Of a stretch of DNA of 35,100 bases, positions 14,143 to 27,836 are shown in pieces. Source of the DNA: Methanobacteriota archaeon (lineage in GTDB: Archaea > Thermoplasmatota > Poseidoniia > Poseidoniales > Poseidoniaceae); assembly GCA_011526375.1 (NCBI GenBank), contig WTIT01000068.1:77123-112222 (forward strand), in the 5' to 3' direction. Each line of letters begins with the position of its first letter. Within the stretch, counting starts at the first letter, position 1. The position numbers and the translations under genes were made by a program. Below the pieces are notes generated by a model that saw only the letters and a list, made by a program, of their open reading frames with translations, was not told where the DNA came from and did not search any database.

Positions 14143-14994
14143 TTGGTTGTGTCTGAGAAGAGTTTTGATGAACGAAGAGCCGCTCTAAGAGAGCGAGTTC
14201 AAAATCAACTCGAAAGCAATCAATCAAACGTGATGGAATTGAATGAGGATTCTTCAGTTTTTCATGATGATGCGGATATAGTAGTTAAGCCGATGATTGA
14301 TCTTGATTATGATGACAGAGAAAGACTGAGAGTGATTGTTGCAATTTTGGTATTAGTCGGCAGCATTCTAGGAATTGTTAGTGGGGGTATTTTAATTCAA
14401 GGTAACCCGGATGATTTACTCAATTCGACCCTCTTCAAAGAAGTTGAAACTGTTGATCTGACAGGGCAAGTACTAACAGTGGATGGTGTTACATTAGAAA
14501 ACGCAACAATTGAATTGTACGAAGAAAATAGCGTTATTGTAAGCACATCTACTGTATCAGATGAGAATGGTTACTTTCAATTCTATGACATTAAACCAGA
14601 AATTATGGAGATACGAGTAGTTATTTCTGGATATCAAAGCGTCGAAAGAACCCTCAGAGCAGAAAATGGATTAATTGCTCCATTTACCATGGTTGAAGGG
14701 AATTCTTCAAACATAATTCAGGAAAATACTGTAGGGAGTGAAGGCGGATGGTCGCTTGAAGCCGCAGTAGCATTATCGACGTTCCTTGGCGTATTAACTA
14801 TCATTACCGGCTTTGTTGGCATACAAGCATCTGTTGAAATTAGAAGAGGGCAGAAATATCGTAGAACACAATATTTAGCCGGGATTGCCCTTTTTAGCAG
14901 AGGATTGATTTGGATAGGCCCAATATGTATTCTTGCCGGGATGGCACTAAACAGCCTTGTAAAGGACCAATATGAAGACTATACTGAGGATTGA
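14143..14994 (+). CDS. Membrane protein with carboxypeptidase-regulatory-like (Ig-fold) domain
   Basis: TM segment VIVAILVLVGSILGIVSGGILI, then LTGQVLTVDGVTLENATIELYEENSVIVSTSTVSDENGYFQFYDIKPEIMEIRVVISGYQSVERTL, then two TM segments. TTG start (or GTG at 14149) is uncertain. Confidence 0.75.
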   Translation: MVVSEKSFDERRAALRERVQNQLESNQSNVMELNEDSSVFHDDADIVVKPMIDLDYDDRERLRVIVAILVLVGSILGIVSGGILIQGNPDDLLNSTLFKEVETVDLTGQVLTVDGVTLENATIELYEENSVIVSTSTVSDENGYFQFYDIKPEIMEIRVVISGYQSVERTLRAENGLIAPFTMVEGNSSNIIQENTVGSEGGWSLEAAVALSTFLGVLTIITGFVGIQASVEIRRGQKYRRTQYLAGIALFSRGLIWIGPICILAGMALNSLVKDQYEDYTED

Positions 14995-16343
14995 TCATGT
15001 ATCTAATCTCAGTTGAGGGAGGAGATGGTTCTGGTAAAGGAGAAGCTGCTAGAATCATTAGTGAATTATTAACCAGTTTTCCATTCCCAAAAATTCATTC
15101 AACTCACGAACCTAGAAGGCACAGTGAACTCGGTAAACTGGCACTAGATTCGGTTATGAAAGGTGATAAAACCCCCCTTGAGGAAGCTGGATTATTTGCC
15201 GCAGATAGGCTTGATCACTCCCATACAATAATCAAGCCATTGTTAGACAAGGGCCACGTTGTAATATCGGATAGAAATATACACTCATCACTAATTTATC
15301 AGGGAATAGTTGGTGATTTAGGAATTGATGATGTAGTAAAAATGAATTCTGCCGCCATGATTCCTGATTTGGTCATATGGATTGACTGTGACCCGGCAAA
15401 AGCGATGAAGAGAATACGCTCTGGGACATTAAGGATGACTAGCAATAAGCAAGAATACTTTGAAACTACCGAAATTCAAAAGAAAATAAGGCAAGGATTT
15501 AGTGAACTGTTATCTGGCAAGATAAGTGTCCCTGAACCATTTGATAAATGTGAAATCGTAGGCCCAATTCTTAATGAATCTGGATTGGATGATTTAAAGA
15601 AAAAATTGGCTGAAACACTTAGGACATTTTTTAACAAAAAACCTGCACCTTTGAATGTCGATTCTGACAAAGTAGATAGATACTTACTAAGTCGTCTGAT
15701 TAACAATCTAGAAACACAAACAAGACTTCCAGGTGCTCCGTTGAACATGAGTGCTGTTCACGAAGGTTGGCTCAATGGGAAAAGCCCTGCGCAATGGATG
15801 AAATTCGTTGAAGATAATTGGCCAAAAGAATCTGCAAAAGAATTCGATGTGCCAAGTAATCCTTTTTCATTTTCCGCATGGTCAATTATTGGTACTCTAT
15901 CACTAATAGGAGGTTCAACTGAAGTTCCTAAACTACACAAATTATTAGGTCCGCATAGAATGATGACAAAACGGCATACTCAGAGGCTTGTTAAGTGGTT
16001 GGAAGAAGAAAAATGGATCAATAAACAGTTTAATCACATACCATTTTCTGATGCTAAGGTCTTCAAATTAAAACAAGATCGTGTTGGCTTTGGAAGACTA
16101 TCTCTAGCATTGTGGCCATTGAGGAGTACTATCTCATCTTGGAGAAGAGCTAATTCTGAACTAGAATGGGAAGATGCCTTGGAAGACATCATTGCCAACT
16201 CAAAGTTACCTAGTTATCAAATCAAAAAATCCCTTAATGACGTTTTTGAGCGGTTGAAAATTCTAACTAGTGGACATAACGAATGTCCCGTTCCTAGCAC
16301 AATACAAGAATTAGCCATATGGTGGAAAACTCCCCCTCCATAA
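14991..16343 (+). CDS. tmk: Thymidylate kinase-like protein with uncharacterised C-terminal domain
   Basis: ISVEGGDGSGKGEAARII, THEPRRHSELGKLALD, FAADRLDHSHTIIKPLLDKGHVVISDRNIHSSLIYQG, PDLVIWIDCDPAKAMKRI. About 235 extra aa after residue ~215. Start probably ATG at 14991 or 14997. Confidence 0.82.
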   Translation: MIMYLISVEGGDGSGKGEAARIISELLTSFPFPKIHSTHEPRRHSELGKLALDSVMKGDKTPLEEAGLFAADRLDHSHTIIKPLLDKGHVVISDRNIHSSLIYQGIVGDLGIDDVVKMNSAAMIPDLVIWIDCDPAKAMKRIRSGTLRMTSNKQEYFETTEIQKKIRQGFSELLSGKISVPEPFDKCEIVGPILNESGLDDLKKKLAETLRTFFNKKPAPLNVDSDKVDRYLLSRLINNLETQTRLPGAPLNMSAVHEGWLNGKSPAQWMKFVEDNWPKESAKEFDVPSNPFSFSAWSIIGTLSLIGGSTEVPKLHKLLGPHRMMTKRHTQRLVKWLEEEKWINKQFNHIPFSDAKVFKLKQDRVGFGRLSLALWPLRSTISSWRRANSELEWEDALEDIIANSKLPSYQIKKSLNDVFERLKILTSGHNECPVPSTIQELAIWWKTPPP

Positions 16344-23031: not shown

Positions 23032-24384
23032 TTGGAGATTAACTTGACGCAACTTATTCTGGGCAATGAATCGGATGTTAAAGGAACTCCTTTAACCGAC
23101 AAGATGACTAAATTTGTCGACGATTTACCAACTGAATTAATTGAAGTGTTAAACAAAATTGCACTTAATGGCGGTGGAGCTTGGATTGTGGGTGGAGCTG
23201 TACGCGATGCTTCAATGGGATACATGCCAACAGACATAGATTTAGCAACTGATTTAACACCTGACAAGCTTCTTTCTATATTTCCCGATGCTATCGAAAC
23301 GGGAGTTTCTTTTGGGACAATTACCATAAAATCTGGAGGATTTCTTTACCAAACCACTACGCTAAGAACAGATGGTGATTATCTCGATTCGCGCAGGCCT
23401 GTTGATGTAAAATGGAATTCATCACTATTTGAAGACCTTAAAAGACGCGACTTTACAATCAATTCGATGGCCATTGATGTTGCTAGAAGGGAATATTATG
23501 ATCCACACAATGGAGTAAATGACATTAAAAATAAAATTATCCGTAGTGTTGGAAATGCTCACAAAAGAATAGATGAAGATGCGTTAAGAATCCTTAGAGC
23601 GTATCGATTTTTAGGCCAAATTGAGGGTAATGATTGGCAACTAGAAAGCAAACTGAGTACTGCTATGATAGATAACTCATTCAAAATTGGTGAATTGTCC
23701 AAGGAAAGAATATGGCAAGAATTAAACAAAATACTTGCTTTCAATAATTCTGGAGAGATATTGATCAAGATGATGAACGACGGAATTCTAAAAATCATTT
23801 TCCAATGGCAGCAAATTGAATATGTAAATTTATCATCTGCCCTAAGTGATTCGAATGAGCTTGATTATATCTCTAAGTTTGTTCTGCTAAATCAACAACT
23901 TGGATTAGAAGGAATTACACAGTTATGTAAATCATTAAAATTATCCAAAAATGATACTAAGAGCATAATATTAACCTATACTAACTCTCTCATTATTCCA
24001 CAGAAATCAGAATCATATCTACGGTTATATAGATTTATAATTGGAGATAGATGGAGACAAGTATTAATGTTAAGCAAAGTAATCTGTAAATATGGATTAA
24101 ACAAGAACGTCCATGAGATAAATGTTGACTTTTTTGACCAAATCATATCATTAATCGTTGATTTACCAAAAAATAAAATCCAGTCTCAATTAATAGACGG
24201 CAATTGGCTAATGAAAACAACCAATATCGGCCAGGGGCAAAAACTGGGTCGTCTTAAAGAGTGGTTGTACCGTATCCAAATCGAAAATGACCTTTCTGAA
24301 ATCTCGGACATAAACCGCTATTTAGTAAAAATTCAGTGGCATAATAGCGATTTTGAGTCGTGGCCTAGAATGTCTCTACAATGA
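23032..24384 (+). CDS. Class II CCA-adding enzyme / poly(A) polymerase-family nucleotidyltransferase
   Basis: GGAWIVGGAVRDASMGYMPTDIDLATDLTPD, SFGTITI, LFEDLKRRDFTINSMAID, DPHNGVNDIKNKIIRSVGNAHKRIDEDALRILRAYRF, ELSKERIWQELNKIL. TTG start at 23032. Confidence 0.88.
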   Translation: MEINLTQLILGNESDVKGTPLTDKMTKFVDDLPTELIEVLNKIALNGGGAWIVGGAVRDASMGYMPTDIDLATDLTPDKLLSIFPDAIETGVSFGTITIKSGGFLYQTTTLRTDGDYLDSRRPVDVKWNSSLFEDLKRRDFTINSMAIDVARREYYDPHNGVNDIKNKIIRSVGNAHKRIDEDALRILRAYRFLGQIEGNDWQLESKLSTAMIDNSFKIGELSKERIWQELNKILAFNNSGEILIKMMNDGILKIIFQWQQIEYVNLSSALSDSNELDYISKFVLLNQQLGLEGITQLCKSLKLSKNDTKSIILTYTNSLIIPQKSESYLRLYRFIIGDRWRQVLMLSKVICKYGLNKNVHEINVDFFDQIISLIVDLPKNKIQSQLIDGNWLMKTTNIGQGQKLGRLKEWLYRIQIENDLSEISDINRYLVKIQWHNSDFESWPRMSLQ

Positions 24385-24417: not shown

Positions 24418-25557
24418 TTGAGCATGTTCAGCGGTAGGATATCTCAGGCAGTTGCCAACCAAATTGAGAAAAAAATATCAGAGAATAACGACTTAAATTC
24501 ACTATCTAATTCTGAACTTGCTGATTTAGCAATAGAATTCGTTGGAGATGCACCGCCATCTCATGTTCCAAGAGAAACCGTAATTGAGATTCTTTCTCAA
24601 CAACCTTCAATCAATTCCTGGAGAGAAGAAATCAAACAGAAAGCTATTGAGGCTGCCAAAAATAAGGTTAGCAATGCATCAAGTAACGTTGATCCTAGGA
24701 TGGCAAAAATGATCAAACAACAATTTGGCCAATGGCTACAAAATTCTGGACTTAGTACAGTTGAGATTACAACCAAAATAGATACAAACTCTGACGGAAT
24801 GATAAGCAGAGACGAATTAGATCACTTCATTCATAACCTCTCTGGAACTAAACCACCAGAATGGGTTTCAGAATCTCTAATTTCCATATTGGATACGGAC
24901 AAGAATGGTGTGATTGAAGTCCAGGAACTCTGGGATTATCTTGGAGCAATAGGGTTCCATGTTCCAGTAATAGAAGAACCAGTAAGCGAAAAAATCGTGA
25001 ATGAGGAATCAGTTATTGATGAAACTCAATCAACTGTTGCTGAAGAAGATGTGTTTGAGGATGCTGAATGGTCTGAAGATTCCGAAATCAACATTGAAGA
25101 AGAAATCGCACAGGTCCCTGACATTGAGCCAGTTAATGAGTCCTTAACCGAGAACCATTTAGAAGATATGCAAACAACAAACGATAATTTGGATGAAAAT
25201 ATTGAGTCGGTTCCTAGCATAAACACCTCTATAGAAATAGGCATAGAAAGACTGCATTCCACAAGACTTCACAGAGAAGCGGTTGATGTAATTGATTCAA
25301 CAAATCCAGGAAATTGTACGCTGATGGTTGAAAGAGTTGAGAGAACTTTGATGGTAATGGATAGTTATAGAGGCGGAATGACTGCTATTGGTTTATTAGA
25401 TAATGGACCATATACCGTTTCAGTTCTATTTGAACCAGAGTATAATGACCAAGTTGAATCTCTTGAAGGAAAGAAAATTTCATTCATTGGAACACTATTT
25501 GATTGGTCGAGTGGTTTGAGACAAGCGAAACTCAAAGGTTCGGAGTTAAGATCTTAA
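24418..25557 (+). CDS. EF-hand domain protein with probable C-terminal OB-fold-like domain
   Basis: Two EF-hand loops (DTNSDGMISRDE; DTDKNGVIEVQE), acidic linker, C-terminal beta-rich domain. No signal peptide apparent. First codon at 24418 is TTG. Confidence 0.75.
   Translation: MSMFSGRISQAVANQIEKKISENNDLNSLSNSELADLAIEFVGDAPPSHVPRETVIEILSQQPSINSWREEIKQKAIEAAKNKVSNASSNVDPRMAKMIKQQFGQWLQNSGLSTVEITTKIDTNSDGMISRDELDHFIHNLSGTKPPEWVSESLISILDTDKNGVIEVQELWDYLGAIGFHVPVIEEPVSEKIVNEESVIDETQSTVAEEDVFEDAEWSEDSEINIEEEIAQVPDIEPVNESLTENHLEDMQTTNDNLDENIESVPSINTSIEIGIERLHSTRLHREAVDVIDSTNPGNCTLMVERVERTLMVMDSYRGGMTAIGLLDNGPYTVSVLFEPEYNDQVESLEGKKISFIGTLFDWSSGLRQAKLKGSELRS
24781..24816 (+). other. EF-hand loop 1 (DTNSDGMISRDE)
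   Basis: Direct translation in the 24418 frame; canonical DxNxDGxIxxxE. Confidence 0.75.
24892..24927 (+). other. EF-hand loop 2 (DTDKNGVIEVQE)
   Basis: Direct translation; canonical DxDxNGxIxxxE. Confidence 0.75.
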
Positions 25558-26739
25558 TCACTTCAGGGATCTTGCAATTACTATCCTTTGGACCTCTTGG
25601 GTGCCCTCGTATATTTGAGTAATCTTAGCATCCCTGAAGAACCGTTCCACTGGGAATTCTTTGGTGTAACCATAACCTCCCAAAACTTGAATCGCTCTTT
25701 CTGAAACCCACATTGCGGTATCTCCCGCATACAGTTTAGCCATGCTAGCTTCCTTGGTATGTCTAGGCCCATCATTCTCATAATGTTCTTGCTTTGCCCA
25801 GGATGCTTGGTATACAAGGTGCCTTGCAGCCTGTATTCTTGTCGCCATATCTGCTAGATATGACATAATCATTTGGTGATGGGCAATTGGTTTCCCAAAT
25901 GCTTCCCGCTCATGTGAATAATTTAGTGCAGCCTCATAGGCGCCTTGTGCAATGCCTAGGGCTTGGGCGGCAATACCTATTCGACTGTTATCCAAAGCAT
26001 TCATTGCGATTGGAAAACCATTACCTACGCCTTTCAAAACGTTCTCAACAGGGACTTTACAATTGTTCAAAATTAATGTGCAAGTGTCAGATGAGCGAAT
26101 TCCAAGTTTGTCTTCTTTCTTTCCGACCGAGAATCCTTCGAATGATGACTCAACTATGAATGCAGTTGTTCCACCATGTTTCTTGACGCCGTAATCTGGA
26201 TGGTCAACATCTTTAGCAAATAGTACCAGTATCTCTGCCTGAGCACCATTAGTGACCCACATCTTTTCTCCATTCAGCAAAAAGTGCTTACCATCATCTG
26301 ATAGTTTAGCTTTGCAGATCATTGCTGCAGCATCTGTTCCCGCACCTGCCTCGGAAAGTGAGTATGCACCTACTTCTCCTGCTGCAAGCCTTGGGAGGTA
26401 TTTTTGCTTCTGTTCGTCATTACCATGAAGCGCGATAGTTTTGGCACACAAACCGACATGGACACAGAACATAACACCAAACGATGGGTCGACTCTTGAA
26501 AGTTCTTCAACAATAATCGATTCAGAAATATCATCTACTGGAGAACCGCCATATTCTTCTGGTATCGTTACTCCCTGTAAACCATAATCGAGGAATTGTT
26601 GCCATTCTTCCTTTGGAGGTATTTGATTTGCATCTCTATGCTCAACTGTGGGTGATAATACTGTCTCAGCAAAGTCTCTAACAAGTTCTCTTATCATTTG
26701 CTGTTCATCGGTTTCGGCGTAGTCCATAAGTCTCCCCAA
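25558..26739 (-). CDS. Acyl-CoA dehydrogenase
   Basis: AYSLSEAGAGTDAAAM, FLLNGEKMWVTNGAQA, KEDKLGIRSSDTCTLIL, YSHEREAFGKPIAHHQMI, VQVLGGYGYTKEFPVERFFRDAKITQIYEGTQEVQRIVIAR-type signature. Confidence 0.96.
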   Translation of the reverse strand: MGRLMDYAETDEQQMIRELVRDFAETVLSPTVEHRDANQIPPKEEWQQFLDYGLQGVTIPEEYGGSPVDDISESIIVEELSRVDPSFGVMFCVHVGLCAKTIALHGNDEQKQKYLPRLAAGEVGAYSLSEAGAGTDAAAMICKAKLSDDGKHFLLNGEKMWVTNGAQAEILVLFAKDVDHPDYGVKKHGGTTAFIVESSFEGFSVGKKEDKLGIRSSDTCTLILNNCKVPVENVLKGVGNGFPIAMNALDNSRIGIAAQALGIAQGAYEAALNYSHEREAFGKPIAHHQMIMSYLADMATRIQAARHLVYQASWAKQEHYENDGPRHTKEASMAKLYAGDTAMWVSERAIQVLGGYGYTKEFPVERFFRDAKITQIYEGTQEVQRIVIARSLK

Positions 26740-26834
26740 TCAAGCCAATAAGCCGACTCACTTAACCCGTTTGCTAATTTTACCAACTCCCTATTTCCCA
26801 AATTATTCATATACGATGCTTTTGAGGCGCGGAC

Positions 26835-26840
26835 AGGAGG
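26835..26840 (+). promoter_or_regulatory. Shine-Dalgarno sequence (AGGAGG) for the GcvH-like gene
   Basis: Seven nt upstream of TTG at 26848. Confidence 0.65.
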
Positions 26841-26847
26841 AATCATT

Positions 26848-27249
26848 TTGGATGAAGAAACCGTTGAATTTAATGTAGCACACAATAGAAAATACTCCAC
26901 AGACCACCTGTGGTATCAAGAAAAGGACGAGCGTCTTATGATTGGAGTCAGTGAATTCCTAAGACTAGAAATTGGTGACATTTTGGAAGTCAAACTTCGA
27001 CAAGCTGAAACTGAGATTGACAAAGGAGATTTCATGTTTTCAGTTGTCACAGAATCTGAAAGGATGCCATTTCCTACTCCATTCTCTGGACTCATTGCCG
27101 AGGTTAATGGTGAAGTTGAAAGTAATCCAGAGCTAGTCAACGAATCTGCTTATGACCTTGGATGGGTCATCATTCTAGAACCTCATGATTTTGACACTGA
27201 ATTATTACTAGATCCTGACGAATATGTCGAATATCTCGCAGAACTTTGA
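26848..27249 (+). CDS. GcvH-like (glycine cleavage H / biotinyl-lipoyl fold) protein without lipoyl-lysine
   Basis: YSTDHLWYQEKDERLMIGVSEFLRLEIGDILEVKL...FSVVTESERMPFPTPFSGLIAEVNGEVESNPELVNESAYDLGWVIILEP aligns by eye to GcvH. Shine-Dalgarno AGGAGG at 26835-26840 before TTG 26848. Confidence 0.82.
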   Translation: MDEETVEFNVAHNRKYSTDHLWYQEKDERLMIGVSEFLRLEIGDILEVKLRQAETEIDKGDFMFSVVTESERMPFPTPFSGLIAEVNGEVESNPELVNESAYDLGWVIILEPHDFDTELLLDPDEYVEYLAEL

Positions 27250-27836
27250 TGGTATTGGTGACCATCATGGAAGAGATAGATATTTTGAAGCAAAGCCTAA
27301 TCAAGGCTCCAATTATTTGGAAAGGTGATTATCCATATTTTATACATCCAATTACCGATGGCGTTCCAAGGCTAGAACCAAAAGTCCTCGAAGCGATAAT
27401 CGAGTTGTCTGTTCCACTAATCGACTGGGAAAACATCGATGTGATTTTGGGTATCGAAGCGATGGGTCTGCCTCTAATGGCACCTCTTTCAATGCGAACC
27501 AATATTCCAATGGTTATCGCAAGAAAGCGCCAATATGGACTCGAAGGAGAAGTTGAGGTAAATCAAGAAACCGGGTATTCGAAAGGCAGCATATTCCTTA
27601 ACGACATTAAACCAGGAGAAAAAATTGCCATTATCGATGATGTTTTATCAACTGGTGGCACAATTAGGTCAGTCATTGAAGGAGTAAAAAGAACAGGTGC
27701 GATAATTCAGAATATTGTAGTAGTAGTCGAAAAAGGCCCTGGGATGGAAATTTTGCAAAATGAGTACCCAAGCATTAAGTTTGACTCGCTTGTAAAACTT
27801 GAGATGGATGGCGAGAAAGTCGTTATTTTAGATTAG
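27246..27836 (+). CDS. hpt: Archaeal-type purine (hypoxanthine/guanine) phosphoribosyltransferase
   Basis: GIEAMGLPLMAPLSMRTNIPMVIARKRQYGLEGEVEVNQETGYSKGSIFLNDIKPGEKIAIIDDVLSTGGTIRSVI: PRPP loop IIDDVLSTGGT. Start could be GTG/ATG slightly downstream. Confidence 0.82.
   Translation: MMVLVTIMEEIDILKQSLIKAPIIWKGDYPYFIHPITDGVPRLEPKVLEAIIELSVPLIDWENIDVILGIEAMGLPLMAPLSMRTNIPMVIARKRQYGLEGEVEVNQETGYSKGSIFLNDIKPGEKIAIIDDVLSTGGTIRSVIEGVKRTGAIIQNIVVVVEKGPGMEILQNEYPSIKFDSLVKLEMDGEKVVILD

Follow-up and report, generated by a model that had tools for sequence, protein, structure and literature searches.

What does a glycine-cleavage H protein do once the lysine that carries its lipoyl arm has gone? A modified lysine is the defining feature of biotin/lipoyl-type carrier proteins. 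The window analysed here (the whole stretch of 35,100 nucleotides, from a contig of a Poseidoniaceae archaeon) encodes an H-like protein, hereafter GcvHL, in which the initial annotation had reported this residue to be missing.

Identity and fold of GcvHL

The view of GcvHL as a GcvH-like protein with the H fold was borne out by both profile searches and structure prediction. Its match to PF01597 (GCV_H) spans the full length at E=1.5e-21 and 77 bits against a gathering cut-off of 22.2, which makes it a superfamily member. It nevertheless scores below both NCBIfam cut-offs for GcvH (TIGR00527, 65.5 against 115.85; NF002270, 80.3 against 117), whereas the canonical GcvH paralog of its own genome lies above them at 155 and 169. 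The GcvH-related models TIGR03077 (35.9 against 144.05) and NF045810 (44.1 against 150) also leave it under their cut-offs. An AlphaFold2 model built from a 44-sequence alignment gave a confident H-protein fold (mean pLDDT 90.6) that Foldseek matched to the T. thermophilus H-protein 1onl_A with a TM of 0.86/0.90 and an rmsd of 1.5 Å; all 22 Foldseek matches at E <= 0.001 were H or H-like proteins. In composition GcvHL is strongly acidic, with 33 D+E against 9 K+R, and the window copy contains no cysteine. The strong Shine-Dalgarno sequence noted initially is indeed present, and is listed with the other features in Table 1.

Table 1. Coordinates of GcvHL and neighbouring features within the window
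Feature	Position	Strand	Basis or remark
Short-chain-type acyl-CoA dehydrogenase, constant divergent neighbour	25558..26727	-	PF02771/PF02770/PF00441
Shared divergent promoter region, ~120 bp	26728..26847	.	Relatives' upstream regions; predicted function
CTTAACCCGTTTG, conserved block, likely dehydrogenase promoter	26761-26773	read on -	Relatives' upstream regions; predicted function
TTCATATA, likely TATA box toward GcvHL	26806-26813		Relatives' upstream regions; predicted function
Shine-Dalgarno GGAGG of GcvHL	26836..26840	+	Read from sequence; 7 nt upstream of start
GcvHL (GcvH-like protein, no lipoyl lysine)	26848..27249	+	133 aa, TTG start; PF01597, AlphaFold2 model, Foldseek
Leu21 codon, equivalent to Glu14 of the pea/E. 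coli H protein, which holds the aminomethyl-lipoyl arm	26908..26910	+	Alignment
Former lipoyl hairpin, residues 65-81 (SVVTESERMPFPTPFSG)	27040..27090	+	Alignment with canonical paralog and 114 orthologs
Ser70 codon, in place of lipoyl-Lys	27055-27057	+	Alignment with canonical paralog and 114 orthologs
Archaeal hypoxanthine/guanine phosphoribosyltransferase (hpt)	27267..27836	+	NF040646, 224 bits, cutoff 200

The former lipoyl site

Counting without gaps from either side (Gly60 +10, Gly81 -11) places Ser70 at the lipoyl-lysine position, which in the AlphaFold2 model falls in the turn that joins strands 62-68 and 72-76. The window protein has no lysine at all between residues 60 and 81; it carries Val67 where GcvH has a glutamate three residues before the lysine (K-3) and Arg72 two residues after it, while at this hairpin the genome's own canonical paralog has VVESVKSASPIFAPLAG. 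The change extends across the family. Among 114 distinct GcvHL sequences from both Poseidoniales families, position 70 is E47 D33 S9 N9 Y6 Q3 F2 G2 L1 H1 T1 and never lysine (0/114), position 67 is mostly Trp (76) or Arg (22), with other residues besides, and never Glu (0/114), and position 21, where GcvH has the Glu of its HEW motif, is Leu in 108, Val in five and Ile in one. In the E. coli H protein Glu-14, together with Glu-12, holds the aminomethyl-lipoyl arm (PMC7733448). GcvHL thus lacks the features of a functional GcvH, namely the lipoyl lysine at the hairpin tip, the glutamate at K-3 and the Glu14 equivalent. Since positions 21, 67 and 70 have all been replaced, the whole lipoate-handling face has been rewritten, beyond the lysine alone. 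The initial claim that the usual site cannot be lipoylated therefore appears, on the alignment, to hold family-wide, and because the loss is order-wide among orthologs, a strain-specific change or sequencing error was ruled out.

The further claim that the segment contains no lysine applies to the window's close clade but does not extend to its relatives, as 80 of the 114 orthologs have a lysine within residues 68-74, in most cases at position 72, which lies two residues beyond the lipoyl site. The initial annotation had named a lysine retained in close relatives as grounds for refutation, and this applies in the letter only, the lysine being shifted to position 72. It is conceivable that GcvHL is a carrier modified at this shifted Lys72 in most species and that the site was lost secondarily in the window clade, and the 79 orthologs with Lys72 (69%) speak for this. 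Yet position 72 is Arg in 24 (21%), the window clade included, and Thr, Val, Ala or Ser in 11 (T6 V2 A2 S1); a covalent site would not tolerate replacement in 31% of orthologs, so Lys72 is not an obligatory one. Against the idea, too, the model puts position 72 beyond the turn, in the first part of the next strand, the motif around the lipoyl site does not move along with Lys72, there being no Glu three residues ahead of it, and selection is no weaker in the window clade, where the residue is Arg. We consider modification at Lys72 very improbable. Across the ortholog alignment there is no invariant Lys, Cys or Ser column (S35 is nearly invariant, at 111/114) and no conserved Cys column, which disfavours the initial suggestion of a carrier with other chemistry. 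Judged from these sequences, GcvHL would no longer carry any covalent group.

In Thalassarchaeaceae (L034-L055, L112), GcvHL has an acidic, poorly conserved insert of 20-35 residues just ahead of the former lipoyl hairpin strands, and in some of these proteins the hairpin is also four residues longer.

Distribution, selection and genomic neighbourhood

GcvHL is present throughout Poseidoniales under strong purifying selection, as an ancient paralog of the H protein of the glycine cleavage system. In 293 sampled Thermoplasmatota genomes, matches at E <= 1e-24 were found in 81, all of them Poseidoniales, and in none of the 211 from outside this order; one sampled Poseidoniales genome, G043, had no match at this threshold. 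The order, with the families Poseidoniaceae and Thalassarchaeaceae, corresponds to Marine Group II, and its sister lineage in the same class, presumably MGIII from its position, had only a Lys-bearing GcvH and no GcvHL in the genomes inspected. In a tree of 74 rows, including 54 canonical Thermoplasmatota GcvH that all retain ES[VT]K (54/54), GcvHL formed a single clade (100/100) apart from the canonical rows, with a stem of 1.27 changes per site leading to it, although the alignment is short for placing its branching point. The simple reading is that gcvH was duplicated at the base of Poseidoniales or earlier.

For unsaturated pairs, dN/dS is about 0.025-0.05, and selection is equally strong in the window clade. 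These values count against GcvHL being a degenerate relic of a gcvH duplicate, despite the loss of its cofactor site, as do its near-universal retention across the whole order, 14 columns invariant over both families, the strong Shine-Dalgarno sequence and the conserved promoter. We regard this reading, offered initially as a regulatory relic, as already refuted and hardly credible.

A complete glycine cleavage system is itself present elsewhere in the genome. As the initial annotation stated, the window holds no other gcv gene, and the genome search that it proposed located a canonical, Lys-bearing GcvH on contig C164, GcvPA, GcvPB and GcvT on contig C123, and a lipoate-ligase catalytic domain on contig C67; by sequence, the canonical GcvH is the protein that serves glycine cleavage here with GcvP/T. 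We weighed the possibility of a regulatory or decoy role for non-lipoylated GcvHL in lipoate and glycine metabolism: it would take the place of H on GcvP, GcvT, lipoamide dehydrogenase or the lipoate ligase and throttle glycine cleavage or lipoylation, and the dehydrogenase described below would be a mere neighbour. Retention of the complete H fold beside a lipoyl system and a canonical GcvH is what such a role would call for. However, no gcv or lipoate genes lie near GcvHL, the face that would meet lipoate and T protein is the one rewritten at positions 21, 67 and 70, and canonical GcvH occurs across Thermoplasmatota whereas GcvHL is confined to Poseidoniales. GcvHL shows no linkage to gcvP/gcvT, but in this genome the canonical gcvH also lies on a different contig from gcvPA/PB/T. 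On balance we hold this reading to be rather unlikely. As a separate observation, an apparent fusion of a HemK-like methyltransferase and a biotin-protein ligase domain (503 aa) was seen in another sequence (L118 560-2071, G000:C131).

The initial annotation placed GcvHL just before hpt with a 4-bp overlap. The adjacency stands in the window but the overlap does not, because hpt most likely starts at ATG 27267, which has its own GGTGA and matches the start conserved in relatives, 17 nt past the GcvHL stop. Moreover, hpt lies downstream of GcvHL at 65 of 82 Poseidoniaceae loci but at 0 of 32 Thalassarchaeaceae loci, and the link was ruled out as a functional clue.

The one constant genomic partner of GcvHL is instead the acyl-CoA dehydrogenase encoded head-to-head with it. 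This enzyme lies divergently and directly upstream at 75/75 Poseidoniaceae and 33/33 Thalassarchaeaceae loci, counting loci with the flank present, some of which may be the same species in two collections. It has the catalytic-Glu motif IYEGTQEV (YEGT), its closest solved relatives are of the butyryl-CoA-dehydrogenase type (4l1f, 1buc), and an electron-transfer flavoprotein is encoded in the same genome, as are three other dehydrogenases. With the tRNA nucleotidyltransferase gene as reference, the pair has one orientation in Poseidoniaceae and at three Thalassarchaeaceae loci, and the opposite one at 30 of 33 Thalassarchaeaceae loci and in one Poseidoniaceae genus, so GcvHL and the dehydrogenase have been inverted jointly at least twice. 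An ortholog of the enzyme with 72-75% identity occurs in MGIII in a different context (four genomes of genus g23 were read) and without GcvHL. It follows that GcvHL joined an older enzyme and is not generally required by it. Genomes lacking GcvHL lacked the dehydrogenase too, but this co-absence was discarded as evidence, since adjacent genes vanish together in incomplete genomes and the case probably reflects one assembly gap.

Several neighbouring genes can be noted in their own right. The tRNA nucleotidyltransferase (23032-24384), whose gene adjoins the pair in both Poseidoniales families, is of the bacterial type, class II, with a PF01743 PolyA_pol head; archaeal enzymes are usually class I. 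In Poseidoniaceae, a gene between it and the dehydrogenase (24418-25557) encodes a protein with two EF-hands whose C-terminal part has no Pfam match. Further away in the window, the product of 14991-16343 has a thymidylate kinase domain (residues 8-175), after which ~270 residues match no Pfam family.

A proposed role and its known relatives

Based on this, we propose that GcvHL is an ancient, neofunctionalised, non-lipoylated H paralog that acts as a non-covalent accessory of the paired dehydrogenase, a reading to which we give a probability of about 0.45, a little short of even. GcvHL would serve the enzyme as a non-covalent module: it may be an accessory or regulatory subunit, or it may tether the enzyme to another flavoprotein or lipoyl enzyme. 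The binding surface may be the face of the former lipoyl cavity, which has become hydrophobic (Leu21, often Trp67), and the common promoter region could keep the two products in proportion. The scaffold or regulator suggested initially remains the best class, with its partner in both families being the acyl-CoA dehydrogenase and not hpt, which is linked in Poseidoniaceae only. The order-wide pairing suggests a cofactor carrier reused as the partner of a metabolic enzyme. More tentatively, an H protein minus its swinging arm may have become, once and at the base of Poseidoniales, a non-covalent subunit or allosteric regulator dedicated to an acyl-CoA dehydrogenase, a 'pseudo-carrier' by analogy with pseudo-enzymes.

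The weak step in this proposal is that from gene pairing to physical or regulatory partnership. Conservation between the families also extends to part of the wider neighbourhood (tRNA nucleotidyltransferase, ParB-like and PIMT-like genes), so inherited synteny may account for some of the pairing, and head-to-head pairs can last merely through promoter sharing. GcvHL could then have an unrelated function, such as binding RNA, nucleotides or other proteins, and its pairing with the dehydrogenase would be purely regulatory. Eukaryotic Simiate/FAM206A offers a precedent for an H-derived protein with a different role (PMC3859600). The strongly acidic composition of GcvHL nevertheless speaks against nucleic-acid binding and the pair has survived two inversions, and we judge an unrelated function distinctly unlikely.

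Lysine-less GcvH homologs corresponding to the GcvHL family were not found described in the open-access literature searched, and comparison with known systems sets the accessory reading in context. With GcvH itself (TIGR00527 / PF01597), GcvHL has in common the fold, the length, the EVNGEVE.NP.LVN..AY..GW region and the overall topology, but not the lipoyl lysine, the Glu at K-3 or the Glu14 equivalent, and it stays below both GcvH cut-offs. Without this distinction, annotation would label it GcvH, and two H proteins would be counted per genome. Two divergent H-like proteins are similarly encoded outside the gcv operon: Streptococcus GcvH-L (5a35), to which the fold match is weaker (TM 0.71/0.84), and chlamydial 'not_gcvH' (TIGR03077), against whose cut-off of 144 GcvHL scores 35.9. 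Eukaryotic Simiate (FAM206A, Abitram) is reported to descend from the H-protein family and to act outside glycine cleavage (PMC3859600); by description only, it differs in being reported absent from archaea and has ~20% identity to H proteins. The lipoate-binding proteins (LbpA) of sHdr sulfur oxidation are H-protein paralogs dedicated to another pathway, as GcvHL would be, but their lipoyl lysine is strictly conserved and most have two cysteines (PMC6067878). GcvHL has neither lipoyl lysine nor conserved Cys and does not lie beside hdr genes. Thus where the LbpA paralogs keep the lysine, GcvHL has had its whole lipoate-handling face replaced while under strong selection, order-wide in abundant surface-ocean archaea, and it offers a clear example of how a carrier fold is reused once its cofactor is gone, with a concrete candidate partner in the short-chain-type acyl-CoA dehydrogenase.
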